Positions 988-33,156 of a stretch of 64,000 bases of DNA are shown piece by piece. Position 1 is the stretch's first letter, and every line of letters starts with the position of its first letter. The DNA comes from Mesorhizobium sp. ZC-5 (lineage in GTDB: Bacteria; Pseudomonadota; Alphaproteobacteria; Rhizobiales; Rhizobiaceae): positions 62,001 to 126,000 of the forward strand of contig NZ_JAOWPT010000011.1 in assembly GCF_025753855.1 (NCBI RefSeq), written 5' to 3'. The position numbers and the translations under genes are program-made. The notes under the pieces are model-generated. The model was not told the DNA's origin. It did not search any database and saw only the letters and a list, made by a program, of their open reading frames with translations.

Positions 988-1193
988 ATGCTTGCGGACT
1001 TTCTTTGGCTGGGAAAGGTCGGCGTTAAAAGACCTTGAACTATGAATTCAGACTGCGGCAAAGATACCGCATCCACCGCTCAAACCACGGCTCGACTTAA
1101 TTTCTATACTCTAATGTTCTTGCGTGTGGCAGACTGGCATGCAGCGTGCCGGATAGAGCGCCGCGGACAGCGTCGAGAACGCCAGGAGGCAAT

Positions 1194-4417: not shown

Positions 4418-4515
4418 CATGGGCACCCATGGCACTTGGTCACCCGCATCCGTTCGGCCACTCCGCCACCTCGCAGGAAAACCGGAATAACTCTGCCGGG
4501 CCGCTCACCGCTCTA

Positions 4516-4935
4516 ATGGATATCCCAAGACTCACCACCATGGTCATGGCGTTTCTGGCAACCTTGCTGTTGCAGGGAGAGGCGCGGGCAGAATTCACGG
4601 TCTGCAATCAGACGCTCGATGTCGTCAATCTTGCTGTCGGCCAGGAGATCGACACCGCATTCCAGACGGACGGATGGTGGACGATCGGCGCAAATCAATG
4701 CGTCAACGTCATCCGCGAGGAACTGACCAACCGCTACATCTACGTCTATGCAACCGATGTTTTCGGGCACGCGATCCTGAGCGGTTCGACAGACATGTGT
4801 ATCGAGCGCCGGCGCTTCAGTATCCGCGGTATCGAAGAGTGCTGGCAGCGAGGTCACATAGCAGCACGGTTTTATGAGATCGACACGCTTGAACAGATCC
4901 GGTGGACCTTCTTCCTGACCGGGCGCAGTCCATGA
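4516..4935 (+). CDS. Secreted DUF1036-type protein of the T6SS locus
   Basis: About 139 residues. The chosen ATG begins a clear signal peptide (MDIPRLTTMVMAFLATLLL, cut after EARA); an earlier in-frame start at 4429 would place 29 polar residues before it. The mature part looks like DUF1036, with FTVCNQTLDVVNLAVG followed by a WWTIGANQC segment and further paired cysteines (MCIE, ECW), suggesting disulfides in the periplasm. DUF1036 proteins are small exported proteins of unknown role, often in alphaproteobacteria. The gene sits 98 bases after the kinase and overlaps the next gene by four bases, so it is very probably part of the same transcript. Family placement is from the motif pattern only. 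Confidence 0.7.
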   Translation: MDIPRLTTMVMAFLATLLLQGEARAEFTVCNQTLDVVNLAVGQEIDTAFQTDGWWTIGANQCVNVIREELTNRYIYVYATDVFGHAILSGSTDMCIERRRFSIRGIEECWQRGHIAARFYEIDTLEQIRWTFFLTGRSP

Positions 4936-7256: not shown

Positions 7257-7321
7257 ACGATCACGCCCACCGCGGCGGGATCGTCTTTACGAACCGCGCA
7301 GCTAACACCGGCACCGGAGAA

Positions 7322-12647: not shown

Positions 12648-12977
12648 GAGACTTTGCGGCGGCTGGTTGCGCGTGCCCGGAATGCCTTCGCCGTTTTCGA
12701 CGAGAGAAAGCAGCGGAACATCCGGAACCAGCGTCACCGCCCCAGCTTGGCATCCTTAGTCGTCGACTCACTAGAAAAATGAAACCGGCATCCGTCACTC
12801 TGGATACCGTTCCCCACGGGTTGATCCGTGCGGCTGTCTGCGATAACATGACAATCGTAGTTAAGTTTTAGCCGCGGACGCAGCAAGGGCCACTCTTCAC
12901 GCGCGGCGCCATCAAAACCTTTGAAACTCCGTACGGAGCGCCTGGCCGGCCTCTGTGTGAAATGGCGTCCGCAACGA
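12648..12977 (+). promoter_or_regulatory. Upstream region of the siderophore biosynthesis operon
   Basis: A 330-base gap that must hold the promoter of the asb operon. No coding frame is supported. The most AT-rich part is around 12840-12872. I looked for Fur, Irr and RirA-like boxes and found no clear inverted repeat. Confidence 0.45.
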
Positions 12978-14747
12978 ATGATCGACAAGAATCAGATTGT
13001 AGCAGAGCAGGCAATTTTTAGAAGCTTCGCAAACAGCTATCTGCGCGAGCTGAATCCCGGGATCCCGGTTTTCCATCGCATCGGCGAACGGAATTTCGAC
13101 TGCGTCGAGATTTCCCTGCCGTCGCGGCATGCGGTTCTTCGCATCGAAATCAAATCCCGATCGCTGTGCGGAATGCACCTCTTTGGACAAATCTGGATTC
13201 GTCAGGATGCCGGTCCGAACTGGCGCGAGATAGAACCCATCCTGGCCTTGCATCTGCTTGTGCTCGGCGCCCGGGATGGCGGATCGGCGACACACCGGCA
13301 GATCGATGTGGAGCTCATCGAGAGGATTTTCCTCAGCTGCCAGGCAACGAAACGTTATCTCGACGCGGCCGGGGAAACGCCGTCTTCGCCGGTCGGCTTC
13401 ATTGCCGCGGAGCAATCCTTGTATTTTGGGCATCCGCTGCATCCGACGCCCAAAAGCCTGCAAGGCATGACCGACTGGCAGCAAGCCGCCTATGCCCCTG
13501 AGCTACACGGCCGGTTTCAGCTAACCTATTTCGCCGCCGCCGACTTCGTCCGCGCGGATTCCGCCGGCCTTCCAGTGGCTTCCATCGTCGAATCCCTTCT
13601 GGGAAATGACGCCGGCAAAGTCGCCGCCGGCAACGGCGAAATGCTTCTGCCCATGCACCCGCTCCAGGCGGAGGCGCTGATGCTCGACCCTGCGGTGCGG
13701 GAACTGATGGCATTGGGACACATCCGGCATCTCGGTCCGGCAGGGCCGACGTTCACGGCAACCTCCTCGGTACGCACCGTCTACAGTGACGCCGCCGCCT
13801 GGATGCCGAAATTCTCGCTGCCCGTCCGCATCACCAACTCCAAGCGCGTGAACCGCCGGCACGAGCTGGAGGCCGGCGTGGCAGTGGCGCGTCTTTTCCA
13901 ACGCGCCGGGATCAACACTTTCGATCCGCATCTCGGCTTCCTCCACGACAGCGCATATCTGACGCTGGATTTTCCCGGGCAGGCAGAGAGCGGGTTCGAG
14001 GTCATCTTCCGCGAGAACCCGTTCCGGGGCCGGGCGAACGATCCTGTGATAACAGTGTCGGCGCTGACGGCCGAACCGCGCCCGGGAGACAGTTCGCTGT
14101 TCGAAAGCGTCATCCTGCGTGTCGCACATGACCATGATGTCTCCGTGCGGCAAGCGTGCCGGCGCTGGTTCGAATGCTATCTCGATTGTGCGCTTGATCC
14201 GCTGGTCAAACTCTACGACCGATTCGGCGTCGCGCTGGAGGCACATCAGCAGAACAGCTTGCTGGATCTGTCGCAGCGGGGGCTGCCGAGCCGATACCTC
14301 TATCGAGACAGCCAGGGATTCTACCTCTCGAACAGCTTCAAGGCACGGTGGTATAGCCTGGTGCCGGAGATCGTCCAGATCCGCGGTCTTTTCTTCGATG
14401 ATCGTGAAATTCGCGAACGGTTCTCCTACTACCTCATCGTCAACCAGATCTTCTCTGTCGTCGCGCGTGCCGGACACGACGGCCTGGCGAGCGAGGCCGA
14501 GTTGCTCGGCATTCTGCGCGCGCGGCTAAAGAAGCTGGCGGCGGAACTGACAGGGGCTGGCGGCGAGTTCGCGGCTGGACTGCTGAACAAGCCGACGATC
14601 ACCGCGAAGGCCAACCTGGCGATACGGCTCCAGAATGTTGATGAACTGGCCGCCGACGGCACCACGATCTACACACATTTTCCCAATCCGCTGAGCCGCG
14701 TCGGGCTGTTCATGACCGCCGAGACGGCACATGCCATTGCCTCTTGA
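12978..14747 (+). CDS. asbA: NRPS-independent siderophore synthetase, AsbA-like (petrobactin)
   Basis: About 589 residues, IucA/IucC family. The ATG at 12978 is chosen because family similarity starts at once (IVAEQAIFRSFANSYLREL, close to the AsbA N-terminus); an ATG at 12921 would add 19 residues. Family landmarks: LLPMHPLQAEALML, the TATSSVRTVYS nucleotide-binding stretch, ITNSKRVNRR, and ALEAHQQNSLLDL; the C-terminus is FhuF-like. In petrobactin synthesis AsbA adenylates citrate and condenses it with a spermidine amine. The gene overlaps asbB by 17 bases and leads a five-gene operon in the exact asb order, which is the main reason to prefer AsbA over aerobactin-type IucA. Confidence 0.9.
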   Translation: MIDKNQIVAEQAIFRSFANSYLRELNPGIPVFHRIGERNFDCVEISLPSRHAVLRIEIKSRSLCGMHLFGQIWIRQDAGPNWREIEPILALHLLVLGARDGGSATHRQIDVELIERIFLSCQATKRYLDAAGETPSSPVGFIAAEQSLYFGHPLHPTPKSLQGMTDWQQAAYAPELHGRFQLTYFAAADFVRADSAGLPVASIVESLLGNDAGKVAAGNGEMLLPMHPLQAEALMLDPAVRELMALGHIRHLGPAGPTFTATSSVRTVYSDAAAWMPKFSLPVRITNSKRVNRRHELEAGVAVARLFQRAGINTFDPHLGFLHDSAYLTLDFPGQAESGFEVIFRENPFRGRANDPVITVSALTAEPRPGDSSLFESVILRVAHDHDVSVRQACRRWFECYLDCALDPLVKLYDRFGVALEAHQQNSLLDLSQRGLPSRYLYRDSQGFYLSNSFKARWYSLVPEIVQIRGLFFDDREIRERFSYYLIVNQIFSVVARAGHDGLASEAELLGILRARLKKLAAELTGAGGEFAAGLLNKPTITAKANLAIRLQNVDELAADGTTIYTHFPNPLSRVGLFMTAETAHAIAS

Positions 14748-16437
14748 TCTCCACGGCACGCCAGAGCGGCGCGTCATGCGCCAACTGGCCGAGGCCCTAA
14801 TCTATGAAGGCTTGGTCGATTGCGCGGTGTCCTGGCGCGGTAGCAAATGCCGCTTCGAATGGCGACATGACGGCGGCGGGATGCGCTGCTCAGGATATAT
14901 CGGCGCCTTCGGCCGAATCAGGATTGTTCCCGAAACCATCGAGCACCGCGAAAGCGGTCAATGGCAGCAGGCAACGCTCGGCGCCCTCCTGGCAAGCACG
15001 CGAGTTTGTCCCGAACGTCACGCACAACTCGCATTCGAACTCGAACAAACGCTGGACTTCAGCATTTGGAACGACAGCAACCTTCCTCCTCGACCGCGCC
15101 GGGATCTGCCGTTTGCGCAACTCGACAGCGCAATGGACGAGGGCCATCCCTATCACCCGTGCTTCAAAGCGCGCACCGGCTTCGATGTCGACGATCATGC
15201 AGGATATGGCCCGGAAGCTGGCAACACCTTCCGGCTGGCCTGGCTGGCGATCGCGCCGGAGCGCCTGCACTCGGCGTTTCCCGCGGATGAACAGGGCTTC
15301 TGGCAGCAGGAACTAGGCGCCGAAACCTATTCGGTGCTCAACGCGCGTCGTGCCCGGCTTAGCGATAACGCAGGGCGGTTCGGTCTTATGCCCTTGCACC
15401 CCTGGCAGTGGAAAGCGTTACAGGAGTCGGACCTTTCGCGCTGGCTGGCCGAGGGTTCCGCCGGCTTCCTCGGCCATGCCGGCGACCGCTACACCGCCAG
15501 CCAATCGGTGCGGACGCTTTTTAATCATGACCATCCGCAACGCGCCAATCTCAAACTGCCGATGAACCTCGTCAACTCGTCGGCCATACGCATCGTCGAA
15601 CCCCATTCGGTATGCAGCGCGCCAACGATCAGCCGCTGGCTCCAGGGCATCGTCGCCGGCGATCCGCTATTTGCGGAGCGCTACCCACTCACCCTCCTCG
15701 GTGAATATGCCGGCACGATCGCCGACCGAGACGGACCGCTCGCAGGCCAGGTCGCTGCGATCTGGCGCGAGGACGTGACGGGTTTCCTGGAGCCGGGCGA
15801 AGCCGCCGTGCCACTCAACGCGCTGATGGTGCTTGAGGAGGACGGCCGGCCGTTCGTCGCCGACTGGGTCGACCGCTACGGTCTGGAAGCCTGGCTCGAT
15901 AAGCTTGTCGACACCGTGGTTATGCCGGCCTGGCACCTGCTTGTTTGCCACGGCATCGCAACCGAAGCACATGGCCAGAACCTCATCCTGATCCACCGCG
16001 ACGGGTGGCCGGTGCGGCTGGCGATGCGCGACTTCCATGACAGCGTCGAATATGTGCCGGGCTTCCTGCGCGACCCCGAGATCGCTCCCGACTTCCTCAC
16101 CTTGAACCCGGCCTATCGCAACGCCGCGCCCAACGAATATTACTGGATGGAGCACCCCAAAATGCTGGGCGAGCTCTTCGTCGATTGCCTGTTCATCTAC
16201 AACCTAGCCGAGATCTCGCATCTGCTGCGGCACAGCTACGGCCTCGACGAGGCAGGTATCTGGTCCGATATCGGAAGCCGAATGCGAGCCCATTCGCTTG
16301 AATGTGGATTGGCGGATCGGCAAGACGCGCTCGGACTTTTTCAGCCCCGCATGCGCACGGAATCCCTGCTCCGGCGCAAGCTCTCGCCACCGGGCACGGA
16401 ATGCGCCCACGAAATCCCCAATAGCCTGGCAGCCTGA
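14731..16437 (+). CDS. asbB: NRPS-independent siderophore synthetase, AsbB-like (petrobactin)
   Basis: 568 residues, second IucA/IucC-family synthetase of the operon. Motifs: MPLHPWQWKALQ, TASQSVRTLFN, NLVNSSAIRI and the strong HGIATEAHGQNLILI block followed by MRDFHDSVEY. The N-terminus (VMRQLAEALIYEGLV) fits AsbB better than AsbA. AsbB catalyses the second amide bond, joining the spermidinyl arm to the citrate core. It starts 17 bases inside asbA and is followed by asbC after 11 bases, so the operon is compact. It is somewhat shorter than the Bacillus protein (about 610 residues). Confidence 0.9.
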   Translation: MPLPLDLHGTPERRVMRQLAEALIYEGLVDCAVSWRGSKCRFEWRHDGGGMRCSGYIGAFGRIRIVPETIEHRESGQWQQATLGALLASTRVCPERHAQLAFELEQTLDFSIWNDSNLPPRPRRDLPFAQLDSAMDEGHPYHPCFKARTGFDVDDHAGYGPEAGNTFRLAWLAIAPERLHSAFPADEQGFWQQELGAETYSVLNARRARLSDNAGRFGLMPLHPWQWKALQESDLSRWLAEGSAGFLGHAGDRYTASQSVRTLFNHDHPQRANLKLPMNLVNSSAIRIVEPHSVCSAPTISRWLQGIVAGDPLFAERYPLTLLGEYAGTIADRDGPLAGQVAAIWREDVTGFLEPGEAAVPLNALMVLEEDGRPFVADWVDRYGLEAWLDKLVDTVVMPAWHLLVCHGIATEAHGQNLILIHRDGWPVRLAMRDFHDSVEYVPGFLRDPEIAPDFLTLNPAYRNAAPNEYYWMEHPKMLGELFVDCLFIYNLAEISHLLRHSYGLDEAGIWSDIGSRMRAHSLECGLADRQDALGLFQPRMRTESLLRRKLSPPGTECAHEIPNSLAA

Positions 16438-16448
16438 GGAACAGATAC

Positions 16449-17720
16449 ATGATCAGAATCAACGATACGGTCTTTGATCAGGCCTACTTCAATGACGCAT
16501 CGGAGCGCATGGCAGCGGCCGCGCAACTCGACAAGCGCGCAGGCGAGCGTTTCGCGGTGTGCTTCTCGGAAGCACAAGACTGGCTGGCGTTCTTCTTCGC
16601 CGCCCGCGCCGCCGGCGTCAGCGTCTTGCCTCTGCATCCCTCGACGCCGTATGCGGCGGCGCGCCGCCAGGCGGAGACGGCGAAGTGTAACTGGCTGTTC
16701 TACAACCGGCAGGAAGGCGAGCCTGTCTGCGAGGAGCATGCGGACGAGCCCGGGCAGCTCTTGCAGATGAGTTCCGGCACGACCGGCGAACCGAAATGCA
16801 TCGCGCGACCGTGGGAAGACATCGGCGACGAGATCGACAGTTACACGGCGGCATTTGTTGAACCGGAGGATATGACGCCATTGATCGCCTGTCCAACCAC
16901 GCATTCCTATGGCCTGATCTGCGGCATACTGATGGCGCTGAAGCGCGGCCAGATGCCGACCATACTGGATACAGGCAATCCCAAATTCCTGCTGCGCAAG
17001 CTGCGCGAAACCGAGCGGCCGTACCTGATCTCGTCACCGGCGATTCTGCATACCCTTGCGCGACTGCTACCGGCCGGCGAGCAGATACACGCGACGATGA
17101 CCTCCGGCACCCTTTTGCCCGAACCGTGGTTCAAAACGATCCGCGGCAAATCCAGGCACATGTTCCAGCAATACGGCTGCTCCGAAGCCGGCTGCATCGC
17201 GATAAATCCGGACGTTCAGGCGGCCAATGAGGTCGGTTATGTGCTGCCGCGCTTCTCGTTGCGAGGCCCTGGCACACAGGGCGCCCCCAAGGAGATCGCG
17301 GTCCAGCACGCAGGTGTGACGGTGGAGACCCGCGACCTCGGCTATCGCCGCGACGACGGCATGTTGGTGTTCCTGTCGCGCCTCGATGATCTGATCAACG
17401 TGTCGGGCCTCAACGTGTATCCGAAGGAAGTCGAGGACGTGGTCATGACCTTCGCCGGCATTGGTGATGCCGTCGTGTTCCGCAAGCAGGACGCATTTGC
17501 CGGCGAGCGTGTCGCGCTGCTGTTCAGCGCCGAACAGACGGTCGACCAGAGGCAGCTTCGGCAATGGTGCGCCGAGCGGCTGGTGGCGCACCAGATGCCG
17601 ACCGAGGTCCTCCAGGTCGAGCGCATCCCGCGTCAAGCCAATGGCAAGATCAGCCGGCGCGAGGTGGCTGCCCGTCACGACGCGGGCGAATTCCAGGCGG
17701 CTCGGACGGAGGCGGCGTGA
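16449..17720 (+). CDS. asbC: 3,4-dihydroxybenzoate-type AMP ligase, AsbC-like
   Basis: 423 residues, ANL adenylating superfamily. The ATP loop reads MSSGTTGEPK, the hinge region DLGYRRDDGMLVFLSRLDDL with NVSGLNVYPKEVEDV, and the C-terminal catalytic lysine sits in QANGKISRREV. The N-terminus (NDTVFDQAYF, then ERFAVCFSEAQDWLAFFFA and PLHPSTPYAAA) resembles AsbC closely. AsbC activates 3,4-dihydroxybenzoate and loads it on the AsbD carrier. GAGGA precedes the ATG by about nine bases. The stop is joined to the next start as TGATG. At this length it is a stand-alone ligase without condensation domain. Confidence 0.9.
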   Translation: MIRINDTVFDQAYFNDASERMAAAAQLDKRAGERFAVCFSEAQDWLAFFFAARAAGVSVLPLHPSTPYAAARRQAETAKCNWLFYNRQEGEPVCEEHADEPGQLLQMSSGTTGEPKCIARPWEDIGDEIDSYTAAFVEPEDMTPLIACPTTHSYGLICGILMALKRGQMPTILDTGNPKFLLRKLRETERPYLISSPAILHTLARLLPAGEQIHATMTSGTLLPEPWFKTIRGKSRHMFQQYGCSEAGCIAINPDVQAANEVGYVLPRFSLRGPGTQGAPKEIAVQHAGVTVETRDLGYRRDDGMLVFLSRLDDLINVSGLNVYPKEVEDVVMTFAGIGDAVVFRKQDAFAGERVALLFSAEQTVDQRQLRQWCAERLVAHQMPTEVLQVERIPRQANGKISRREVAARHDAGEFQAARTEAA

Positions 17721-19063
17721 TGACTTACGATCAATTATTCGGCGCGATCGAAACCGTCCTGCGCGACAAGCTCGGCCACCCGCATATGGATGGCTTCGCG
17801 CCTCAAGCGAGGCTGAACGAGGATCTCTATCTCGACTCCGTTCTGATCCTCGAAATCATGCTCGCTCTCGAACTCGACCACGGCATCGCATTATCCGAGG
17901 AGGTCATCAGCCGCCAGGATCTTGATACCGTGGACGACCTCGTACGGCTGTTCATCCAGGAAATCGAAACCGATCCGGAAGAGGTGGAACCGGCCAAGGA
18001 ACTGGTTCTCATCCGCGCCGAAAGGGAAGCCGCCGAGCGGATCGGCGTGCACGGCGAGGACTACGTCGACATCAAGGTTCACTGCTTCGTCAGCAGCGTC
18101 TGCCACGCGGTAAAGCAGAAACTTCTCGATCACCGGCTGTTCTTCTTCGGTGTATGGGATGCGGGTTTCGCCATCGATGAGAGCTGGCGGCTGGCGTACC
18201 ACGCACCTGAAATCAACCACGACTTCTTTCGTGACTGGTTCGAGCGCCTCTATGGCCCAGAGATTCGCCAATGGTACCGGGTAGACGACACCAAGTTGGG
18301 CAATCTGGCGACGATGCTGGAACTGCTGGAGCGCAAGAAGCCGAGCGAATACCTGATGGTCATGCTCGATCTCTTCCATCTGCCCGAGCGCGAGAACAAG
18401 TTCAACCAGAACCCGTTCCCGCACTACCTGATGCTGGAGAAAACCGACGATCTCGAGGTGTGGATGGTTCTCGATCCCGATTTCCGCTGGGAAGGCAGGA
18501 TCGACAGGCAGAAGGTCATCGACGCCATCATGCAGCCGACCGTTGCGGGCGGCTTCATCTTCGACGCCGCCGACATCAGGAAACCGTCCGCTGTCGATGT
18601 GCGCGACTACTTCCTTGCCTGCTTCCATGAGGACGACAATCTGTTGACACGCGCCACCCGCGATATCGTCCGCGCGCATGTCGAGGGACGTGATGGTGTC
18701 AACCTGACCGATTTGTCGACGGCGCTGCGCGAACTGCCGGTCATCTCGATCCGCAAGTACGCGCTGGAGCATGGCTTCGCCTTTTTCTGGCGATCGCTGC
18801 AGCTCTCCAACGCCGGATTCGAAACGATCTGTGACGATATCGAGTCCCTGATCCAAGGGTTCAAGGCGCTTCATTACGCGATCATGAAGCTCAGCCGAAC
18901 AGGCGACGAAGCCCTGGCGGCGGGAATATTCGAAAAGCTCGATGAGTTGGACGCGATGGAGCGCTCCCTGAAGGGCCGTCTCGCGCAAACCTACAGGGTG
19001 TGGTGCGACACGCGCGGCCTCCTGCATGCTCCGCGCCACGATGTGGAGGAAGCCGTCGCATGA
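17720..19063 (+). CDS. asbDE: Fused acyl carrier (AsbD-like) and petrobactin condensation protein (AsbE-like)
   Basis: About 447 residues in one frame. Residues 1-80 form an aryl/acyl carrier domain with the phosphopantetheine serine Ser40 in LYLDSVLILE. From about residue 95 to the end is an AsbE-type domain, recognisable by HCFVSSVCHAVKQKLLDHR, FFFGVWDAGF, APEINHDFF, MVMLDLFHLPERENKF and NPFPHYLMLEKTD. In Bacillus anthracis these are separate genes of about 91 and 327 residues; their summed length matches this protein. The carrier holds the 3,4-dihydroxybenzoyl group and AsbE transfers it to the spermidine arms. GGAGG lies upstream of the ATG, and the start is coupled to the asbC stop. A frameshift artefact is unlikely because a natural-looking linker joins both halves. 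Confidence 0.87.
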   Translation: MTYDQLFGAIETVLRDKLGHPHMDGFAPQARLNEDLYLDSVLILEIMLALELDHGIALSEEVISRQDLDTVDDLVRLFIQEIETDPEEVEPAKELVLIRAEREAAERIGVHGEDYVDIKVHCFVSSVCHAVKQKLLDHRLFFFGVWDAGFAIDESWRLAYHAPEINHDFFRDWFERLYGPEIRQWYRVDDTKLGNLATMLELLERKKPSEYLMVMLDLFHLPERENKFNQNPFPHYLMLEKTDDLEVWMVLDPDFRWEGRIDRQKVIDAIMQPTVAGGFIFDAADIRKPSAVDVRDYFLACFHEDDNLLTRATRDIVRAHVEGRDGVNLTDLSTALRELPVISIRKYALEHGFAFFWRSLQLSNAGFETICDDIESLIQGFKALHYAIMKLSRTGDEALAAGIFEKLDELDAMERSLKGRLAQTYRVWCDTRGLLHAPRHDVEEAVA

Positions 19064-19905
19064 GATTGTCGCTTTGCACGATCACGTTCCGCCATCACCT
19101 GCTGTCGCTGGAAGATATTGCGCGATGGGCGGCGGCGAACGATTTCCAGGGTATCGAACTGTGGGGCGCGCACGCGCGCAACATGCAGCATATGACCGAC
19201 CGCAATGCGGCGTGGATGGCGGGGTTCGGGCTTTCCGTGCCCATGCTCAGCGACTATCTGCCTCTTGACGACGATCTGGCATCGCTGCGTCACGCCACGT
19301 CGAACCTCTGCCGTCTGGCCGGCCGTTGGGGGGCTGGCAAGGTGCGCACATTCGCCGGCAAATCGGCCAGCGGGGATACATCGCCCGAAGCCCGGTGGCG
19401 GTTATCGGCCCGGCTCAAGGACGCCTGCATGATGGCGCAGGACCAGGGTTGCCAGATACTGGTCGAAACACATCCGGGAACGCTTGCCGATACGCTGACG
19501 TCGACGCAGCGACTGATCGAGGAGGTCGACCATCCGGCCCTCGGCATCAATTTCGATACCTTGCATGTCTGGGAAGGTGGCGATGATCCGATCGCCGCGC
19601 ACCGCGCCCTGCTGCCGCATATCCGGCACTACCATCTGAAGAATGTGCGCGCGCGCGCCGATCTCGCGGTGTTCGAGCCGGCGAATGTTTACGCGGCAGC
19701 TGGAAGGCGGGCCGGGATGACGGCACTGTTCGACGGCGCCGTCGACTATCTGGAATTCCTGGACGAACTGCCGGAGCACGACGAGGTCGACGCTTCGCTG
19801 GAATGGTTCGGCGGCGATTGCTTCAACATCCTCGCCAATGACGCGCGCAACATGCGCTTGCTGCGTGCCGACCGAGAAGCGCCGATCCGATCCGGAGCGG
19901 CATAA
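19060..19905 (+). CDS. asbF: 3-dehydroshikimate dehydratase, AsbF-like
   Basis: 281 residues, xylose-isomerase-like TIM barrel. The N-terminus (LSLCTITFRHHLLS, then FQGIELWGAHARN) is highly characteristic of AsbF. Residues that fit the divalent-metal ligands of this family are Glu136 (VETHPGT), Asp166 (NFDTLHVWE), His192 (HYHLKN) and Glu248 (SLEWFGG). The enzyme converts 3-dehydroshikimate to 3,4-dihydroxybenzoate, the petrobactin catechol, from the shikimate pathway. The start overlaps the asbDE stop by four bases with GGAGGA upstream. A hairpin terminator follows 27 bases after the stop. Presence of this gene is what distinguishes the operon from aerobactin- or 2,3-dihydroxybenzoate-type clusters. 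Confidence 0.92.
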   Translation: MRLSLCTITFRHHLLSLEDIARWAAANDFQGIELWGAHARNMQHMTDRNAAWMAGFGLSVPMLSDYLPLDDDLASLRHATSNLCRLAGRWGAGKVRTFAGKSASGDTSPEARWRLSARLKDACMMAQDQGCQILVETHPGTLADTLTSTQRLIEEVDHPALGINFDTLHVWEGGDDPIAAHRALLPHIRHYHLKNVRARADLAVFEPANVYAAAGRRAGMTALFDGAVDYLEFLDELPEHDEVDASLEWFGGDCFNILANDARNMRLLRADREAPIRSGAA

Positions 19906-19931
19906 ACCGCCCCACTTCAGGCGGAATTGCA

Positions 19932-19966
19932 AAGGCTGGCGCGAGTCTCCCCGCGCCAGCCTTTTT
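19932..19966. terminator. Bidirectional rho-independent terminator between asbF and the TonB receptor
   Basis: A 12-bp perfect stem (19932-19943 with 19952-19963) with an 8-base loop, followed by a T-run on the plus strand and with A-residues in front that give a T-run on the minus strand. It lies between convergent genes and can serve both. Confidence 0.9.
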
Positions 19967-19971
19967 CGATG

Positions 19972-22062
19972 TCAGAACCGCGCCGTGGCGCTCAACCGGA
20001 ACGAACGGCCGGGATCATAGTGCGGCATTACACCGTCGAAATCCTGCCCGTAGGCTGCGCGGTCCGTGTAGTTTTCGTCGAAGATATTGAGGGCGTCCGC
20101 CCGCAACGTGAAGTTCGGGCGCGAGGGCGGCGTCCATTCGAGGAAAGCATTCACCACCTCATAGCCGGGCAGTTCCTTCTTGGCGCTGGTTGGATCGGTC
20201 GGATGCCGCACCATCGTGCCGTCGTAGGCGAGTGCGATCTCGACGTCGCCGCCGACTTTCAGTCCCCAGTCGTCGAACGTGTAACCCGCACCGATCATGA
20301 TGATCTGCCCGAGCGGCGTCGTCAGGTAGCGGCCGATCTCGGAATCGGCGGGCACATCGTCGACATCGGCATCGATGTCGGCGTATTTCACGCTGACGAA
20401 GCCGGCATCCCAATCGTAGCGTCCGCCGATTTCCCAGCCTTTGGAGACGAGATCGAGGGTTCGGATCGACGTCAGTTCGGGAACGGGTGCGCCGCGTCCG
20501 AATACCGGCAGGCGTGCGTCGCTGATATCGGTGCGGAACACGTTCGCCTCGAAGGTGAAGCCGTTGTAACGCGCCTCCAGACCGGCGGTATAGTTGTTGG
20601 AAGTCACCGGCTCGGGGCCGCCGCCATAAGTCCAGAGCGGGTTCTGCAGATAGTTTTCCGCCAGCGGAACAGCGCCCCAGACATGCGAGGTGCCGGCCTT
20701 GACCGTCAGGAATTCAGGCAGCAGGTCGTATTCGCCCGAGATGTTGCCGCTGATACCGGCGTTCTTCCACTCCGTACCGTCGACGCCGGTGAACCATTGG
20801 TGGTCGGCGCGCCCCCCAAACGAGATCCTGGCCCGGTCGAAGGGCTCCAGGCGCGCCTGGGCATAGGCGCCGACATTCGTGGCGCGTTCATCGGTGAAGA
20901 ACGGCGCCGTCGCGTTCTTGTAGTCCAGGTCGGCCTTGTCGTTGTAGAAATCGAAGCCGGCAGTGACGCTGCCCATGTCGAGCGCAAACCGGTTTTCCAC
21001 CTTGCCGTTGAAGCTGCTGGTCGCGCCCTCGGTCGGCGACACAATGTCGGGGTCGAAGCGGTCCGTTTCCAGAGTTCCTATCTGTGTGCGGCTGTAAGCG
21101 AACACGATCTTGGGGTCCCACCATCCTTCAGGTGTTGTATCCGTATAGGTGAAGACAGTGTTCTGGCGTTGTAGGTCGTAGTTCCGGACTTCAGGCTCCG
21201 CGCCGCGGTTGATGTAGACATTGGCGCGATAGGGACGCAGCGCGTTGTCGCGCACCTGCTCGTGGCTGAGCTCGAAGCGATGGCCATCGACAGCCTCATA
21301 GGCGATCTTGCCCAGCCCACTGATGAGGTCGGTGCCCGTCCCCAGCATTTCGTCGCCATTGCCGGAGGTGAAATTGCCACCATGGCCGTAGTTGATGTAG
21401 CCGAGATATTCGAACCCGTTCTGCTGGCCGAAGGCGCTCACGCCGGTGGTGAATGTCTCGCTGTTGGTGTCCCAGATGCCGGTGACGAAACCGCCGAAAT
21501 TGCGGCCAGGCTCCAGCAAGTCGACAGCGTCCTTGGTCTCGAACCCGAGCGAACCTGCGAGCGCGGCTGGACCGGCATCGGCCGGTGCGACGCCCGCCTG
21601 CACCGATGCAGCCTTCAGGAGCGCCGGATCGAGCAGATATGTGCCGTTGTGGTGGAATACCTTGTTGTTCTGTCGTGACCCGTCGACGGTCACAGCCAGA
21701 TTGTTCTCGTCGACGCCGTTGACGTAGATCTTCTGCGTGCTGGGGATCGCCCCGCCTACAGCGATTTGCGGCTCGCCGGAGAACACCTCCCTCAAGTCCT
21801 GCGGTTTCTTGCGGTCGATCTCCTCCTGGTCGATGGTGATCAGATCGGCGCCGGCCGTGGCGTTCGCGCCCGCACCCACGTCGACAACGACAACGGTATC
21901 GAGTTGCGTCACTCCGCCAGGAGCCGGGCTTTCTCCTTCTTCTTCGCTCGAGGTTCGCGATTCCGCTTCCCGCGCCGGAGCCGACTGTGCCAGCGCGTCG
22001 GGACACACAAAAAAGGACATCGCTGTACTAACGGTCAGCGCGCGCAGAATATCGGATGACAT
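19972..22062 (-). CDS. TonB-dependent ferric-siderophore outer-membrane receptor
   Basis: About 696 residues from the ATG at 22062; an in-frame start at 22152 adds 30 residues before the signal peptide. The precursor carries a signal sequence ending in DALAQS. The plug domain begins near residue 50 (TQLDTVVVVDVG, then DLREVFSGEPQIAVGG and KIYVNGVDENNLAVTVDG), followed by a 22-strand-type barrel. The C-terminus (NFTLRADALNIFDENYTDRAAYG to RSFRLSATARF, ending in Phe) is classic. It should take the ferric siderophore across the outer membrane with TonB energy. Its position at the end of the minus-strand uptake set, facing asbF, points to petrobactin or a relative as ligand; that is inference. 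Confidence 0.88.
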   Translation of the reverse strand: MSSDILRALTVSTAMSFFVCPDALAQSAPAREAESRTSSEEEGESPAPGGVTQLDTVVVVDVGAGANATAGADLITIDQEEIDRKKPQDLREVFSGEPQIAVGGAIPSTQKIYVNGVDENNLAVTVDGSRQNNKVFHHNGTYLLDPALLKAASVQAGVAPADAGPAALAGSLGFETKDAVDLLEPGRNFGGFVTGIWDTNSETFTTGVSAFGQQNGFEYLGYINYGHGGNFTSGNGDEMLGTGTDLISGLGKIAYEAVDGHRFELSHEQVRDNALRPYRANVYINRGAEPEVRNYDLQRQNTVFTYTDTTPEGWWDPKIVFAYSRTQIGTLETDRFDPDIVSPTEGATSSFNGKVENRFALDMGSVTAGFDFYNDKADLDYKNATAPFFTDERATNVGAYAQARLEPFDRARISFGGRADHQWFTGVDGTEWKNAGISGNISGEYDLLPEFLTVKAGTSHVWGAVPLAENYLQNPLWTYGGGPEPVTSNNYTAGLEARYNGFTFEANVFRTDISDARLPVFGRGAPVPELTSIRTLDLVSKGWEIGGRYDWDAGFVSVKYADIDADVDDVPADSEIGRYLTTPLGQIIMIGAGYTFDDWGLKVGGDVEIALAYDGTMVRHPTDPTSAKKELPGYEVVNAFLEWTPPSRPNFTLRADALNIFDENYTDRAAYGQDFDGVMPHYDPGRSFRLSATARF

Positions 22063-22229
22063 CAACTGAATTCCCCTCGACAACTTGTGGCCCCCGCCGC
22101 CGCGAACGCGCCAGCTTCCGACTGCCTTAGCGCATCGTGGTGTTGTCGACAATAAAGTTGATAAAAAAAATCCAGTTTATGCAAGCTACTGTAACTACTG
22201 TGCTCTTCAGAACACACCAGGTTTACATG
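22063..22229 (-). promoter_or_regulatory. Leader region of the TonB receptor gene
   Basis: 167 bases between the ATPase gene and the receptor. It contains an AT-rich stretch at 22151-22185 and a perfect 10-bp palindrome TTGTCGACAA (22143-22152). It may hold a separate iron-responsive promoter, but I saw no clear match to a known iron box. Confidence 0.4.
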
Positions 22230-22988
22230 TCATGTGTGGTGCAGCACCGCCAACCGCCCCGCGACCCGCTCCACCAGCATGGGAAAGCCGAAAATGCTCT
22301 CCAGGACGTCCGGTCTGATGATCGCCTCGGTATCCCCCGAGGCTACGACGGCGCCGTCCTTCATTGCCACGATCCGGTCTGCATGAGCCGCCGCGTGATT
22401 GATGTCGTGGAGCACGATGAGCACGGTCTTTCCGTGCTCGTCCCCAATGCGTCGCAGCGTCCGCATGAGGTTTCTGGCGTGGAACATGTCCAGGTTGTTC
22501 AACGGCTCGTCCAGAAGGATGTAGTCCGTTCCCTGACAGAAGGTCATGGCGACAAGGGCGCGCTGCCGTTGTCCGCCCGATAGGGTATCGATGAAGCGCA
22601 GCGACAGATCGCCGAGGTCGAACTGTTCCAGAGATGCCGCGACGATTTCCCGGTCCTGCGCCGTCAATCTTCCGCGGTGATGCGGGAAACGGCCGAAACC
22701 CACCAGTTCGGCGACGCGCAGGCGGCTTGCGACGCCAGGATCCTGGCGCAGGATGGCCATGACCTTCGCCAGTTCGCGGCTTGGCGTCGTGTCGACCGCC
22801 AGTCCGTCGACGGTGATGCGGCCGCTTTGGAGAGGTTGCAGGCGGGCAATCAGCGACAGCAGGCTAGACTTGCCGGCGCCATTGGGGCCGACAAGCGCCG
22901 TGACCCCGCCTTTCGGCACCGTAAGGTTCACATCGTTGAGGATGCCGCTGCCGCCAAGGGTCAGGGATACGCCTGAAATCTCGATCAT
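22230..22988 (-). CDS. Iron-siderophore ABC transporter ATP-binding protein
   Basis: 252 residues. Walker A is GPNGAGKSS, the signature LSGGQRQRA, Walker B YILLDEPLNNLD, and the switch His lies in VLHDINHAAAHADR; the overall pattern is that of FecE/FepC/YclP-type ATPases. Start at 22988 overlaps the permease stop by four bases (ATGA). It powers import of the ferric siderophore from the periplasm together with the two FecCD-type permeases upstream. A much longer open frame runs into the permease on this strand but has no homology upstream of MIEISGV. Confidence 0.9.
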   Translation of the reverse strand: MIEISGVSLTLGGSGILNDVNLTVPKGGVTALVGPNGAGKSSLLSLIARLQPLQSGRITVDGLAVDTTPSRELAKVMAILRQDPGVASRLRVAELVGFGRFPHHRGRLTAQDREIVAASLEQFDLGDLSLRFIDTLSGGQRQRALVAMTFCQGTDYILLDEPLNNLDMFHARNLMRTLRRIGDEHGKTVLIVLHDINHAAAHADRIVAMKDGAVVASGDTEAIIRPDVLESIFGFPMLVERVAGRLAVLHHT

Positions 22989-23959
22989 CGTCGGCCCGAT
23001 GCAAACAGAATGGCAAGGAACACGATTCCACCGGCGAACTCCACTACGATGCCGAGGCTGCCCTCTCCCCCGAGAGCGTGCTGAAGCACGGTCTGGCCGC
23101 CCACGAGCACGATTATCGCCGTCAACGCCGCCGCCGGAATAAGCACGGCGTGCCGGTTGGTACCGACGATGCGTTGGGCGAGTGAAACGACCAGCAGCCC
23201 CAGAAACGCCATCGGCCCAACCAACGCCGTTGATGCCGACACCAGCGCGGCGACAAGAACGAGAAGCCCGGCGGCGGTGACGCGCCATGCAACGCCAAGC
23301 CCGATTGCGGTGTCCGAGCCCAGCGCGAGCACATCGAGAACATGCCGCGCCCGCCATGCGATGAAGGTGCCCGCCACCGTAATCGCGGCAGCGAGCAGCA
23401 GCAGTTCGGGTTCCACCGCGTTGAAGCTTGCGAAGACCGCACCTTGCAGCACCGCGAAATCGTTGGGATCGATGAGCCTGGCCAGCAACGTCGTCAGGGA
23501 GCGGAAAAGTACACTGAGCACGACGCCGGTCAGCAACATCAGCGTCAGATCGAATTGGCGGCGCAGCATCGGCAGGAACAGCACAAGCGCCAAACACGTC
23601 ATCGCCATGAAATTGCCGAGGAAGTGCAAGCGGGGATCGATGCCGGCAAAACCGAAGCCGCTCAGCGTAAAGACAAGCGCGGTCTGGCAGAAGATGTAGA
23701 GCGCATCCAACCCCATGATCGACGGGGTGATGATGCGGTTTGCGCAAACGGTCTGGAACACGACCGTCGAAACCGCCACCGCCACGCCGACCACGACCAT
23801 GGCCGCCAGGCGGACCGAGCGCAATTCGAGCACAAAGGCCAGGTTGCCGCGCAAGCCGATCGTCATGTACGCCAGACAGGCCAGCAATGCCGCCGCCGCC
23901 ATGATCGCCACGCGGAAATCGGGCCGCACCATGTCGCGTTGCACGGCGGTTTCAGTCAT
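22985..23959 (-). CDS. FecCD-family siderophore ABC permease (second of pair)
   Basis: 324 residues, about nine hydrophobic helices. It has the FecCD pattern: SVRLAAMVVVGVAVAVSTVVFQTV, an NRIITPSIMGLDALY stretch, ALGSDTAIGLGV for ATPase contact, and VGPMAFLGLLVVSLAQ. Together with the neighbouring permease it forms the channel for the ferric siderophore. The start overlaps the preceding gene by eight bases; the stop overlaps the ATPase gene by four. The N-terminus from MTETAVQRD is preferred; an upstream in-frame Met lies inside the other permease. Confidence 0.9.
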   Translation of the reverse strand: MTETAVQRDMVRPDFRVAIMAAAALLACLAYMTIGLRGNLAFVLELRSVRLAAMVVVGVAVAVSTVVFQTVCANRIITPSIMGLDALYIFCQTALVFTLSGFGFAGIDPRLHFLGNFMAMTCLALVLFLPMLRRQFDLTLMLLTGVVLSVLFRSLTTLLARLIDPNDFAVLQGAVFASFNAVEPELLLLAAAITVAGTFIAWRARHVLDVLALGSDTAIGLGVAWRVTAAGLLVLVAALVSASTALVGPMAFLGLLVVSLAQRIVGTNRHAVLIPAAALTAIIVLVGGQTVLQHALGGEGSLGIVVEFAGGIVFLAILFASGRR

Positions 23960-24932
23960 TGCGGTTTCGGCCGAGCAACAGGATGAGGAAAAGTACCGCG
24001 CCGACGACGCCAAGAACCGTGCCGACCGGCACTTCGTAGGGGAAGCGGATCAGCCTGCCGATCATATCGCAGGCAAGCACCAGCGCCGCGCCCCCTCCGG
24101 CGACCCACGGCAGGGTGTGGCGGAGATTTTCCCCGGCGAAGCGGGATACGATGTTGGGCACGACAAGACCGACGAAAGGGATGGTCCCGACAACGACCAC
24201 GATGAGCGCGGTGACGGCCGAGACGATGACCAGGCCGAACCGCAGCACGCCGGCATAGTTGAGGCCAAGCCCGATGCTGGCGTCCCTGCCCATCGAAAGA
24301 ATCGTCAACCTGTCGGCGGTCCACAAGGCCAGCGCGACCAGCGCGCCCGCAACCCACAACAGTTCATAGCGTCCGCGCAGGATGCCGGAAAACTCGCCCG
24401 TCATCCATACTTCGACATATTGCAGGAGGTCCAATCTCCAGGCCAAGAAGGTGGCGACGGCACCGATGACGCCGCCATAAACGAGCCCGAAAAGGGCGAC
24501 GAGGAAAGGCTGCGTGGGCGGCAGCCTGTGGGCAAGCATGAGAAATAAAGATGTTCCCGCGAGCGCGGTCGCGGCAGCACCCGCGGCCTTCCAGCCAAGC
24601 GCGGCATTCGGCCAGACCAGCGTCACGACCAGTATGCCGAGTGCAGCCGATTGCGCGGTCCCGGCCGTCGCCGGCTCGACGAAACGGTTGCGGGCAAGTG
24701 TCTGCATCACAAGGCCGGCGATGGCCAGTGCGCTGCCGGCCAGGAGGGCGGCCAGTGTGCGCGGCAGCCGGCTGACCATCACCAGCCGCAAGGCTTCCGG
24801 ATCGGAAACGAGGCTGCGGATGGACAGGTTGGTGACGCCGACGAACAGGCTGCCGACAAACAGCGCAGCCAGGGTTGCGATGGCGATGGCCTGAAAGGCG
24901 AAGCCTGGGCGGCCGATGGTGGCAGCTGTCAT
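23952..24932 (-). CDS. FecCD-family siderophore ABC permease (first of pair)
   Basis: 326 residues with the FecCD hallmarks: RLPRTLAALLAGSALAIAGLVMQTLARNRFVEPATAG in the second helix region, MGRDASIGLGLNYAGVLR and GTIPFVGLVVPNIVSRFAG. It should pair with the next permease to form a hetero-dimeric channel. Its start overlaps the binding-protein stop by four bases, so binding protein, two permeases and ATPase make one coupled operon, the same order as fatBCD/yclNOPQ-like petrobactin uptake systems. Confidence 0.9.
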   Translation of the reverse strand: MTAATIGRPGFAFQAIAIATLAALFVGSLFVGVTNLSIRSLVSDPEALRLVMVSRLPRTLAALLAGSALAIAGLVMQTLARNRFVEPATAGTAQSAALGILVVTLVWPNAALGWKAAGAAATALAGTSLFLMLAHRLPPTQPFLVALFGLVYGGVIGAVATFLAWRLDLLQYVEVWMTGEFSGILRGRYELLWVAGALVALALWTADRLTILSMGRDASIGLGLNYAGVLRFGLVIVSAVTALIVVVVGTIPFVGLVVPNIVSRFAGENLRHTLPWVAGGGAALVLACDMIGRLIRFPYEVPVGTVLGVVGAVLFLILLLGRNRND

Positions 24933-25831
24933 TGCGTCTGCGAGAAGGCGTCTCGGATCGTCTCGAGCACGCGCTGCATCGACCGGACGCCGCCCGCCGC
25001 GATGTAGAAATCCGCTGCCGGCACGTGGATAATCTGCTTCTTCTTCCAAGCCGTGGTTTCGGCCACCAGTTCGTTGTCGAGCGTCGCCATCGCGTTCTGC
25101 TCGCCCGACCCGATCGCCGCGGCGCGGTCAAGCACGATGAGCCAGTCCGGGTTGGCATCGCGAACGAACTCGAAGGAAATCGCCTCACCATGGGTGGCGG
25201 CCTCGACATCCTCGACGGCAGGCGGGAGCTCGAGCGCCGCGTGCACCCAACCGAAGCGGGAGCCCTTGCCGTATGCCGTCACTTTCGGGCCGCTCGTCAT
25301 CAGGATCAGCGCCTTGCCCTTGCCTTTGACTGCCTCGCGTGTCGACACGAGCAAGGCGTCGAGTTCTGCGGCAAGCGCGGTGGCCTCGGCCTGTTTGTCG
25401 ACCAGGGCACCATACGCCGCGAGGCGCTGTTTGGCCTGCGCGAACAGGTCGTCGCCGTCCATCGTCATATCGATGGTCTGCGCAATCCGGCTGGTGGCGG
25501 CCAGTTGCGGCGAGGAGCGCCCGCCGAGAATGATCAAGTCCGGCGCCAGTGCGCTCAGGGCCTCCATGTCAGGTTCGAAGATGGTGCCGACGACTTCGGC
25601 GCCATCCTTTAACCGGGCGAGTTCCGGCACGTAGAGATTCTCGGGCAGGCCGGCGATCTTCACCCCAAGGCTGTCGAGCGTATCGACCGCCGCTATGTCG
25701 AAGACGGCGAGCGTCTGCGGCGTCTCGCCGACGCTCACCGGTCCCTTTGCCGTCTCGATTTCGGTACCTGTCGCCTGAGCGAGGAAAAGAGCCAATGCGG
25801 GCAGCGACAGGGCTGATGTGAACCATCTCAT
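24929..25831 (-). CDS. Periplasmic ferric-siderophore-binding protein (FatB/YclQ-like)
   Basis: 300 residues with an N-terminal hydrophobic export signal (WFTSALSLPALALFLAQATG). The two-lobed class III binding-protein pattern is seen: VSVGETPQTLAVFDIAAVDTLDSLGV, EALSALAPDLIILGGRSS, ALILMTSGPKVTAYGKGSRFG, and ANPDWLIVLDRAAAIG. This arrangement resembles the petrobactin/catecholate binders of the YclQ-FatB branch. It delivers the iron complex to the permeases encoded immediately downstream. Ligand assignment rests on the neighbouring asb operon. Confidence 0.87.
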   Translation of the reverse strand: MRWFTSALSLPALALFLAQATGTEIETAKGPVSVGETPQTLAVFDIAAVDTLDSLGVKIAGLPENLYVPELARLKDGAEVVGTIFEPDMEALSALAPDLIILGGRSSPQLAATSRIAQTIDMTMDGDDLFAQAKQRLAAYGALVDKQAEATALAAELDALLVSTREAVKGKGKALILMTSGPKVTAYGKGSRFGWVHAALELPPAVEDVEAATHGEAISFEFVRDANPDWLIVLDRAAAIGSGEQNAMATLDNELVAETTAWKKKQIIHVPAADFYIAAGGVRSMQRVLETIRDAFSQTQ

Positions 25832-25857
25832 GAGCGAGTTCCGGATCGAATGGCCGC

Positions 25858-26142
25858 TCAGCCTTGCCAGGCCAGCGGCTGCAGATTTTCGCGAAAGGCA
25901 AAGCGGACAAGATGCGATTCGATGACCTGCTTGGTCTCGCTCAGCGCCTCGGCGTCCGCAGCTTCAACCCGTATCTCCAGTTCCTTCGGGCCGGCGTCCA
26001 TCTTGGCGGTGCCGCAGGAAAAGCGGCACTCTCCACGCCCATCGCCATATTCCACCTCAACCTTGTGCGCGAAATGTTTGCAGAGCTGCTGGAGGTATTT
26101 GTCCGCATATGGCGTTTCGCAATGCGCTGTCGCGGTGAGCAT
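25858..26142 (-). CDS. DUF2218 protein at the head of the siderophore uptake operon
   Basis: 94 residues. The pattern TATAHCETPYADKYLQQLCKHFAHKVEVEY with GRGECRFSCGTAKM and VIESHLVRFAFRE is that of DUF2218, a small cytosolic family often encoded beside iron and siderophore uptake genes. Three conserved cysteines and several His could bind metal or support ferric reduction, but no function has been shown to my knowledge. It is 26 bases upstream of the binding-protein gene on the same strand and thus is probably the first gene of the uptake transcript. Confidence 0.83.
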   Translation of the reverse strand: MLTATAHCETPYADKYLQQLCKHFAHKVEVEYGDGRGECRFSCGTAKMDAGPKELEIRVEAADAEALSETKQVIESHLVRFAFRENLQPLAWQG

Positions 26143-26150
26143 CGAGGCCT

Positions 26151-26168
26151 CTTAATATGAGAATTAAG
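26151..26168. promoter_or_regulatory. Inverted repeat, candidate iron-responsive operator
   Basis: CTTAAT and ATTAAG arms flank a 6-base spacer, nine bases upstream of the DUF2218 start. The AT-rich dyad with a central TGAGA resembles Fur-type boxes more than RirA boxes. Assignment is tentative. Confidence 0.5.
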
Positions 26169-26399
26169 CTCCACTTATCGCAAACCCCACTTTCAGGCAA
26201 GGTTACGACGGGTGGTCCCCCTGTCAGCATCTGTCAGGAATATTTTCTCCCCTTTATCCCCACCCTTCCAACCACCCGCATAATCCTTCTCACAGTTTGG
26301 AAGGAACGGCGATGGACTGGACTGCGGCAATCGAGAAGAACCGGGAGGCGCTGAAGCGCATCCTGGCCGCACTCGTCGCCATGGCCGGGCTCGCCGGCG

Positions 26400-27364: not shown

Positions 27365-27678
27365 CAAAACTGCCTAAATCCAAATCTGCGACAGAACAGG
27401 TCGCTGTATCCGAACACCGCCGATCTCCGCACGGTTCAAGTGTTCCTCTCGCATACGCATGTTGCGCCGCGCTGCTCTTAAGCAGAGAGTTTACACATGG
27501 CAGAAAAGTTGGTCGAGGCCGGTCTTGAGATCGATACTGGAGAGTGGGCTCACGCGTCGGTTCGAACAGAGCGACAGGGCTACACATCCACTGGGCATGG
27601 TTTGCGGTTCATACGCCGCACGAGTGAACGCTGGCTGGGTGCGTCGTTCCTGCTGGCAAGTCACCCCACGCTTCACGG
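27286..27678. other. Spacer between possible attachment site and IS6 element
   Basis: About 390 bases. The part up to 27400 is clearly more AT-rich than its surroundings, which suggests foreign origin. Short open frames exist on both strands but none shows a recognisable family or a convincing ribosome site. I see no gene here. Confidence 0.5.
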
Positions 27679-28496
27679 GGCTCTGTCGCAAACGGCACGG
27701 TAACGTTGTCTGGAGCATGAAAGCTCTTCCATTTCAGGGGAGCTCGTCGATGTTCAGTGGCCGCCACTTCGACCAAACGGCAATCCTGCTGTGCGTACGC
27801 TGGTATCTGGCTTATAATCTCAGCCTTCGTGATCTGGAAGTGATGATGGCCGAGCGCGGCATTCACGTCGACCATTCCACGGTCCATCGTTGGGTCGTTC
27901 ATTTCGCGCCGCTGCTGCTTGAACGCTTCAACCGGAGAAAACGTTCGGTCACCGGCAAGTGGCACGTTGATGAAACTTATATCCGGGTGCGCGGCCGCTG
28001 GATGTATCTCTACCGCGCCGTCGACAGCGTGGGCGACACGGTCGAGTTCTTCTTCAGCGAAAACCGTGATCTGCCGACCACCAAGCGCTTCATCCGCAAA
28101 GCGCTGAACCGTCATGGCCGACCAGATCGTATCGTCATTGATGGTAACCAGACTAACCGGGAAGCAATCATTGCGTGCGATGGCGAGAGCCGGCTTCGGG
28201 ATCGCAACGGCTACTGAAGCGGATCCGCATCCGGCAAAGTCCATACTTGAACAACAGGATCGAACAGGACCATCGTCGAATCAAGCGCCGGATCCGGCCC
28301 ATGCTCGGCTTCAAAATCGACCACCTGCGCAGCAACCATCCTGTGCGGCATTGAAATGATTTACATGATGCGGAAACGACAGGCGAGGTACGCGCACAAT
28401 CCAGCACCGTCACTTGTCGAACAGTTTGAAGTCCTGGCCGCGTAAAAAATGAGCAGAAGCCTTTCCGCGTCTCACCTTCGAGTTTGCGACAGAGCC
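27679..28496 (+). mobile_element. IS6-family insertion sequence, 818 bp
   Basis: Perfect 15-bp terminal inverted repeats: GGCTCTGTCGCAAAC at 27679-27693 and its complement at 28482-28496. Length and a single transposase gene fit the IS6 family. The 8 bases outside the two ends differ, so no target duplication remains; together with the truncated IS6 copy on its right this suggests a deletion after replicative transposition. Confidence 0.9.
27717..28445 (+). pseudogene. IS6-family transposase, frameshifted
   Basis: The gene fills the IS (about 240 codons, normal for the family). The first 166 codons are intact: zinc/HTH region, first catalytic Asp in WHVDETYIRVRGRW and second Asp in IVIDGNQTN. 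After RLRDRNGY the frame stops at 28217; a single-base indel near 28210 shifts the rest. The shifted frame continues with LKRIRIRQSPYLNNRIEQDHRRI, which contains the third catalytic residue (Glu), and a second indel near 28335 returns to the first frame for IEMIYMMRKRQARYAHNPAP and the end at 28445. The full DDE triad is therefore encoded but not in one frame, so the element is probably inactive unless frameshifting occurs. Confidence 0.88.

Positions 28497-31503: not shown

Positions 31504-33156
<1,653 letters not shown>

Follow-up and report, generated by a model that had tools for sequence, protein, structure and literature searches.

A 64,000-nucleotide stretch of the Mesorhizobium sp. ZC-5 genome (contig NZ_JAOWPT010000011.1, positions 62,001 to 126,000 – hereafter 'the window') very probably carries a petrobactin-family siderophore locus, equipped for both synthesis and uptake, whose product most likely contains unacetylated homospermidine as its triamine. 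A first-pass annotation of this DNA had proposed a petrobactin-type 3,4-catecholate locus for synthesis and uptake in a Mesorhizobium-like genome. Homology to Pfam and NCBIfam models, solved structures, and related genomes supports the locus assignment, and the Mesorhizobium-like character of the genome was likewise borne out.

The locus spans window positions 12978–26142 and consists of two convergent operons – a biosynthesis operon on the plus strand (12978–19905) and an uptake operon on the minus strand (19972–26142). All of the genes named below are open frames at the coordinates given. The biosynthetic neighbors asbA-asbB-asbC-asbDE-asbF overlap or are separated by short gaps. The uptake operon begins at its upstream end with the gene for a DUF2218 protein, followed by those for a periplasmic binding protein, two FecCD permeases, the importer's ATP-binding subunit, and finally the receptor. 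We infer that each side is read as one transcript; the receptor gene, with 167 bases before it, may have a promoter of its own.

Biosynthetic genes

Homology identified the complete set of an asbABCDEF-type cluster: two IucA/IucC nonribosomal peptide synthetase-independent siderophore (NIS) synthetases, AsbC, AsbD, AsbE, and AsbF. The first synthetase gene, asbA (12978–14747, plus strand), has IucA/IucC and FhuF domains in Pfam, and its ATG start lies within a stretch conserved in an alignment of 11 sequences. The closest solved relatives of AsbA are IucA and AcsD, which are nearer to it than AsbB, and it contains a GHPxHPxxK motif that we take to be an NIS synthetase motif. The second synthetase gene, asbB (14731–16437, plus strand), has the same Pfam domains (IucA_IucC and FhuF). 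When searched against known petrobactin proteins, as the first-pass annotation had suggested, AsbB matched solved AsbB (3to3, E 3.5e-95) and AsbF matched solved AsbF (3dx5, E 4.9e-67). By homology, the asbF gene (19060–19905, plus strand; Pfam AP_endonuc_2) is predicted to encode a 3-dehydroshikimate dehydratase, which would be the source of 3,4-dihydroxybenzoate (3,4-DHB). Its product aligns with 3dx5 over nearly its full length and contains ETHP, INFDTLH, HYHLKN, and SLEWFG motifs, which presumably hold the metal and substrate residues. Between these genes, asbC (16449–17720, plus strand) matches Pfam AMP-binding and, above its cut-off, PRK08308; its context suggests that it encodes a 3,4-dihydroxybenzoate-AMP ligase.

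In a small correction to the first-pass annotation, the asbD and asbE functions lie in one gene, asbDE (17720–19063, plus strand), which encodes an aryl carrier protein fused to AsbE (DUF6005, E 1.5e-142). The N-terminus matches NCBIfam AsbD with E 1e-14 and 54.7 bits, under the cut-off of 100, and the carrier domain scores 17.5 bits against PP-binding, under the Pfam cut-off of 20.8, with an invariant DS motif. The carrier Ser40 and residues Cys122, His235, Asp252, and Asp254 are invariant in 43 of 43 sequences. DUF6005 has been published as a papain-like family with a siderophore context, and BtrH, from a group close to C39, as an acyl carrier protein:aminoglycoside acyltransferase (PMC10318531). 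Based on the conserved residues and this publication, the AsbE half is probably a papain-like cysteine acyltransferase in which Cys, His, and Asp would support acyl transfer from the carrier to the triamine.

These genes suggest a pathway in which AsbF would convert 3-dehydroshikimate to 3,4-dihydroxybenzoate, AsbC would load this aryl acid onto the carrier domain of AsbDE, AsbE would pass it to the triamine, and AsbA and AsbB would link two of the resulting arms to citrate. Uptake of the ferric complex would proceed via the TonB receptor, followed by the binding protein and the FecCD importer, and the DUF2218 protein would probably aid intracellular iron handling or release.

Uptake genes

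The first gene of the uptake operon (25858–26142, minus strand) encodes an MllG-like DUF2218 protein (PF09981, E 4.4e-30). Position 26142, which the first-pass annotation gave as the end of the locus, is the start codon of this gene, which it did not name. His23, His26, and His77 are invariant in 38 of 38 aligned DUF2218 members and possibly form a metal or siderophore site.

The FatB/YclQ-like periplasmic binding protein (24929–25831, minus strand; Peripla_BP_2) is 71% identical to its counterpart in the Sinorhizobium fredii USDA 205 cluster (L060 in our set). Its best solved matches are 8bf6 (E 6.1e-52), 8b7x, 4mx8, YclQ (3gfv, E 1.4e-44), and enterochelin-binding proteins. Two FecCD permeases follow (23952–24932 and 22985–23959, both minus strand; PF01032, E 1.1e-60 and 1.1e-44, respectively). 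The FatE-like ATP-binding subunit (22230–22988, minus strand; 67% identity to L060) sits inside a longer open reading frame (ORF) at 22230–23747 on the minus strand, where it corresponds to residues 253–495 of the translation, with a start at about 22988. The last gene encodes an FprA-like TonB-dependent outer-membrane receptor (19972–22062, minus strand; Pfam Plug and barrel domains) that is 55% identical to the L060 receptor and matches solved enterobactin- and heme-type receptors over partial length only.

Between the convergent operons lies a hairpin (19931–19964) with a 13-pair stem, a folding energy of -30.4 kcal/mol, and a z-score of -3.6. This hairpin, which our consensus scan did not list, is likely a bidirectional terminator.

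The first-pass annotation had remarked that no exporter is visible. Consistent with this, a scan of 40 further ORFs in the window, the part of the genome covered, turned up no exporter family. Nor was a conserved exporter recognized among the neighbor genes shared by 80 related loci, where many of the common ORFs are antisense shadows and annotation is partial.

Polyamine genes and the predicted product

The first-pass annotation had proposed spermidine 'or other polyamine' as the siderophore arm. Genome evidence leans toward the second option, in the form of homospermidine, and away from spermidine. The Mesorhizobium sp. ZC-5 draft genome has no AdoMet_dc (S-adenosylmethionine decarboxylase), no Spermine_synth over its cut-off (best 22.1 bits versus 22.9), and no nspC/CASDC over its cut-off (best 28.9 bits versus 409). 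A search with PF01916, covering a deoxyhypusine synthase-like route, found nothing. Two PF16653 hits in the genome were considered as homospermidine synthase and rejected on inspection, as they were judged unlike it in length and sequence.

Within a sample of 395 family genomes, homospermidine synthase is present in 317, and the CASDC model matches 174 at E 1e-60, 82 of them over its cut-off. AsbDE matches occur in 38 genomes of the sample; homospermidine synthase accompanies them in 37 and CASDC in 10 (counts read by eye from the table rows of the sample; Fisher p 0.002 and 0.025, respectively, uncorrected for relatedness). Three of the 38 AsbDE matches are only 39% identical and possibly have another function. 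An early view of the locus as rare was softened in light of these 38 matches.

Spermidine production by S. meliloti has been described as 'unlike most rhizobia' (PMC13293326), and rhodopetrobactin and methylolanthanin, which are made by homologous clusters, contain homospermidine (PMC7857480, PMC11317620). Based on the missing spermidine genes, the distribution of homospermidine synthase and CASDC, and the description of rhizobial polyamines in PMC13293326, we favor homospermidine arms; the triamine is most likely left unacetylated. Two homospermidine arms on citrate with two 3,4-DHB groups would give C36H54N6O11, with a computed [M+H]+ of 747.392. The computed values for petrobactin, a mixed form, and methylolanthanin are m/z 719.361, 733.377, and 799.424, respectively. 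For rhodopetrobactin B, the mass by formula is 831.413, and the value of 831.4228 printed in PMC13251462 is 11 ppm off.

Since homospermidine synthase is present, and the CASDC route to spermidine absent, in most of the sampled Rhizobiaceae with AsbDE, we see an even chance that rhizobial asb loci of this kind yield, in place of petrobactin, a so far undescribed homospermidine analogue without acetyl groups ('homopetrobactin'). If so, the compound reported as 'petrobactin' from S. fredii-like strains would need re-examination. With the predicted masses, mass spectrometry could readily show whether rhizobial 'petrobactin' is based on homospermidine.

Distribution and layout among relatives

To place the locus among its relatives, we used the best 80 of 148 loci from an AsbDE scan of named genomes, with flanks of up to 10 kb (some shorter), and located the locus parts by direct tblastn. 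The asbC and asbDE genes are present in all 80 loci, asbA and asbB in 79 each, DUF2218 in 62, asbF in 61, the receptor in 59, and the binding protein in 55. The combination of asbA, asbB, asbC, and asbDE occurs in 79 of the 80 loci, and 60 have asbF as well. All 11 parts co-occur in 31 of the 80 loci, S. fredii USDA 205 included, which argues that the locus is not a chance assembly. In 29 of the 80, all 11 parts are each at least 35% identical, and identity to the seven nearest complete Mesorhizobium loci (L033–L039) is 76–93%.

The convergent layout – asbA-F facing receptor, ATPase, permeases, binding protein, and DUF2218 – was found in nine of the 80 loci (L033–L039, L041, and L042), all from Mesorhizobium or Paramesorhizobium. 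FecI-like genes are present in 52 of the 80 loci and FecR-like genes in 46, with names assigned on the basis of sequence and by reference to an annotated Neorhizobium plasmid cluster. Searches of the window and of the 10 loci of its clade, at E limits of 1 and 0.001, recovered neither (window hits had E 0.09 or worse). A tree of length-filtered AsbA, AsbB, AsbC, and AsbDE, built from the window and 47 of the 80 loci (48 sequences in all), gives a sister relation to Aminobacter with support of 0.66 and serves as a rough guide only. The fusion of D and E was considered as a novelty and rejected – it is common among the relatives and described in PMC11317620.

We also observed that 18 of 79 informative asb clusters lack asbF in the fetched flanks (L049–L052, L054, L069, L081, L085, L088, L089, L096, L102, and L107–L112). 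These fall into separate groups that include Neorhizobium, Rhizobium, Rhodopseudomonas, and Methylobacterium, and may use another aryl acid, such as 4-hydroxybenzoate, or carry asbF elsewhere. One further locus without asbF, L094, is uninformative because its sequence stops just after asbDE.

Candidate regulatory sites

A TGA-N9-TCA motif is quoted for RirA in PMC8822346. Sites no more than one mismatch away from this motif are common, numbering 296 in the window. Before the receptor gene, an AT-rich RirA/IRO-like box (22159–22173, minus strand; GGATTTTTTTTATCA) is one mismatch from the motif; its counterpart lies at the same place in every one of the 10 aligned promoters (the window and nine relatives), never with more than one mismatch. 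Four AT-rich sites of this kind occur in the 64-kb window. The same set of promoters has a candidate RirA-like box before DUF2218 (26158–26172, minus strand), again with at most one mismatch in 10 of 10 and located 30–32 bases before the start. A RirA/IRO-like box before asbA (12849–12863, plus strand; TGA-N9-TTA) is a weak candidate; it lies in a promoter stretch conserved across 11 aligned sequences and has at most one mismatch in six of these and two mismatches in the other five. These sites suggest that RirA likely controls the locus directly, with no FecI step at the locus in between.

Flanking DNA

The DNA that flanks the locus is unlike the flanking sequence available for 10 near loci, except for up to about 70 bp before asbA in nine of them. 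Plasmids of five Mesorhizobium records match a third of the length of the left flank at 76%. For the right flank, 449 records match somewhere, and the best-listed matches cover 8–10%, mainly groES-groEL. Because its flanks are unlike those of the near loci and in part resemble plasmids, the locus may be a mobile cassette and is possibly on an accessory replicon.

Among the neighboring genes, positions 1–7300 of the window belong to a type VI secretion region with genes for IcmF, a PP2C phosphatase, a protein kinase, and an M23 peptidase; much of this part resembles Mesorhizobium plasmids. A transposase ORF with a partial IS240-type DDE domain lies just past the locus (27459–28217), followed by a groEL gene (31528–33156); groES and groEL are also found on the matched plasmid regions.

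Alternative interpretations

Some results weigh against the homospermidine-based reading. The homospermidine synthase probe was unmatched in the Mesorhizobium sp. ZC-5 genome – the sole exception among the 38 AsbDE-bearing genomes – and the assembly is rated 100% complete. An assembly gap is the likeliest explanation, and gene loss is the alternative. The gap is suggested by a PabB-like gene (identified by reading) in the corresponding 9-kb synthase region of a sister genome, which likewise has no close counterpart in Mesorhizobium sp. ZC-5 (best match 31%). A DNA comparison over this 9-kb region returned short pieces only, with 40 of 271 candidates scored, and we do not count it as evidence of a gap. 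The same cause could underlie the other polyamine-gene absences, and the cell could import spermidine. A Pfam search of AsbDE at E up to 10 gave neither a BtrH nor a C39 match. Finally, in a genome of the same genus (M. albiziae; L040, 11119–21350), asbA-F are present and the receptor, importer, and DUF2218 are absent at the locus.

One alternative, which we consider doubtful, is that the product is authentic spermidine-based petrobactin, with spermidine derived from the plant or soil or made by a route that the draft assembly fails to show. In its favor, solved petrobactin enzymes are homologous to AsbB and AsbF, a CASDC-type gene occurs in the 10 AsbDE-bearing family genomes noted above, and the S. 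fredii product is named petrobactin in print (PMC8822346, PMC12815270). However, the genome has no spermidine-synthesis gene over cut-off, and CASDC is present in just one of the seven closest AsbDE-bearing genomes. The name itself seems based on genes and siderophore assays – the main text of PMC8822346 contains neither 'mass spectrometry' nor 'spermidine'. It is unlikely that the product is a lanthanophore of the methylolanthanin type or an acetylated compound resembling rhodopetrobactin. The clusters for those compounds share the D-E fusion and DUF2218 (PMC11317620), but members of the GNAT acetyltransferase cluster (rhodopetrobactin type) that is represented in 13 of the 80 related loci gave no hit in the window, the part of the genome searched for it. 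A silent cassette, or one acquired recently, from which nothing is made under normal conditions is a very improbable reading. The dissimilar, partly plasmid-like flanks would fit such a history, but every frame is open, and gene order and two promoter boxes are conserved in nine relatives, which points to selection.

Comparison with known systems

The first-pass annotation had treated the locus as surprising for such bacteria. This does not hold: an fprA-c14010-asbABCDEF-fatBDCE locus has been described for S. fredii CCBAU45436 and Aminobacter aminovorans (PMC8822346), and homologous clusters occur in Rhodopseudomonas and Methylobacterium (PMC11317620). PMC8822346 covers the S. fredii locus and mutants of it, and reports the locus from 245 alphaproteobacterial genomes; further use of it is made in PMC12815270; and the relatives methylolanthanin and rhodopetrobactin are described in PMC11317620 and PMC13251462. 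No Mesorhizobium asb locus appears in the available text of PMC8822346 or PMC12815270. Within the literature searched, the kind of locus is thus already known, and its branch, layout, and predicted product are modest additions.

All components of the S. fredii type are present in the window, among them the FprA-like receptor and the FatBDCE-like importer, with identities of 52–71% to the USDA 205 cluster, in which D and E are also fused; the DUF2218 gene, judged by position, probably corresponds to c14010. The S. fredii locus is one polycistron beside FecI/FecR, whereas the locus described here forms two convergent operons without these genes. The adjacent sigma-factor genes control the S. fredii locus, and misregulation harms nodulation there (PMC8822346). 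Our results add a Mesorhizobium branch, in which the layout differs and adjacent sigma-factor genes are absent, to the few rhizobia from which this siderophore system is known.

The rhodopetrobactin cluster of Rhodopseudomonas palustris and the methylolanthanin (mll) cluster of Methylobacterium share the AsbD-E fusion, DUF2218, and the logic of joining citrate to an aryl acid, and their homospermidine backbone is the one predicted here. These clusters include a GNAT acetyltransferase and sigma/anti-sigma genes, none of which are found in the window, and in mll asbB and asbC are fused, whereas here they are separate. Bacillus anthracis asbABCDEF supplies the solved AsbF and AsbB proteins matched here; relative to that system, the Mesorhizobium locus has fused D and E, an added outer-membrane receptor, and a different predicted triamine.

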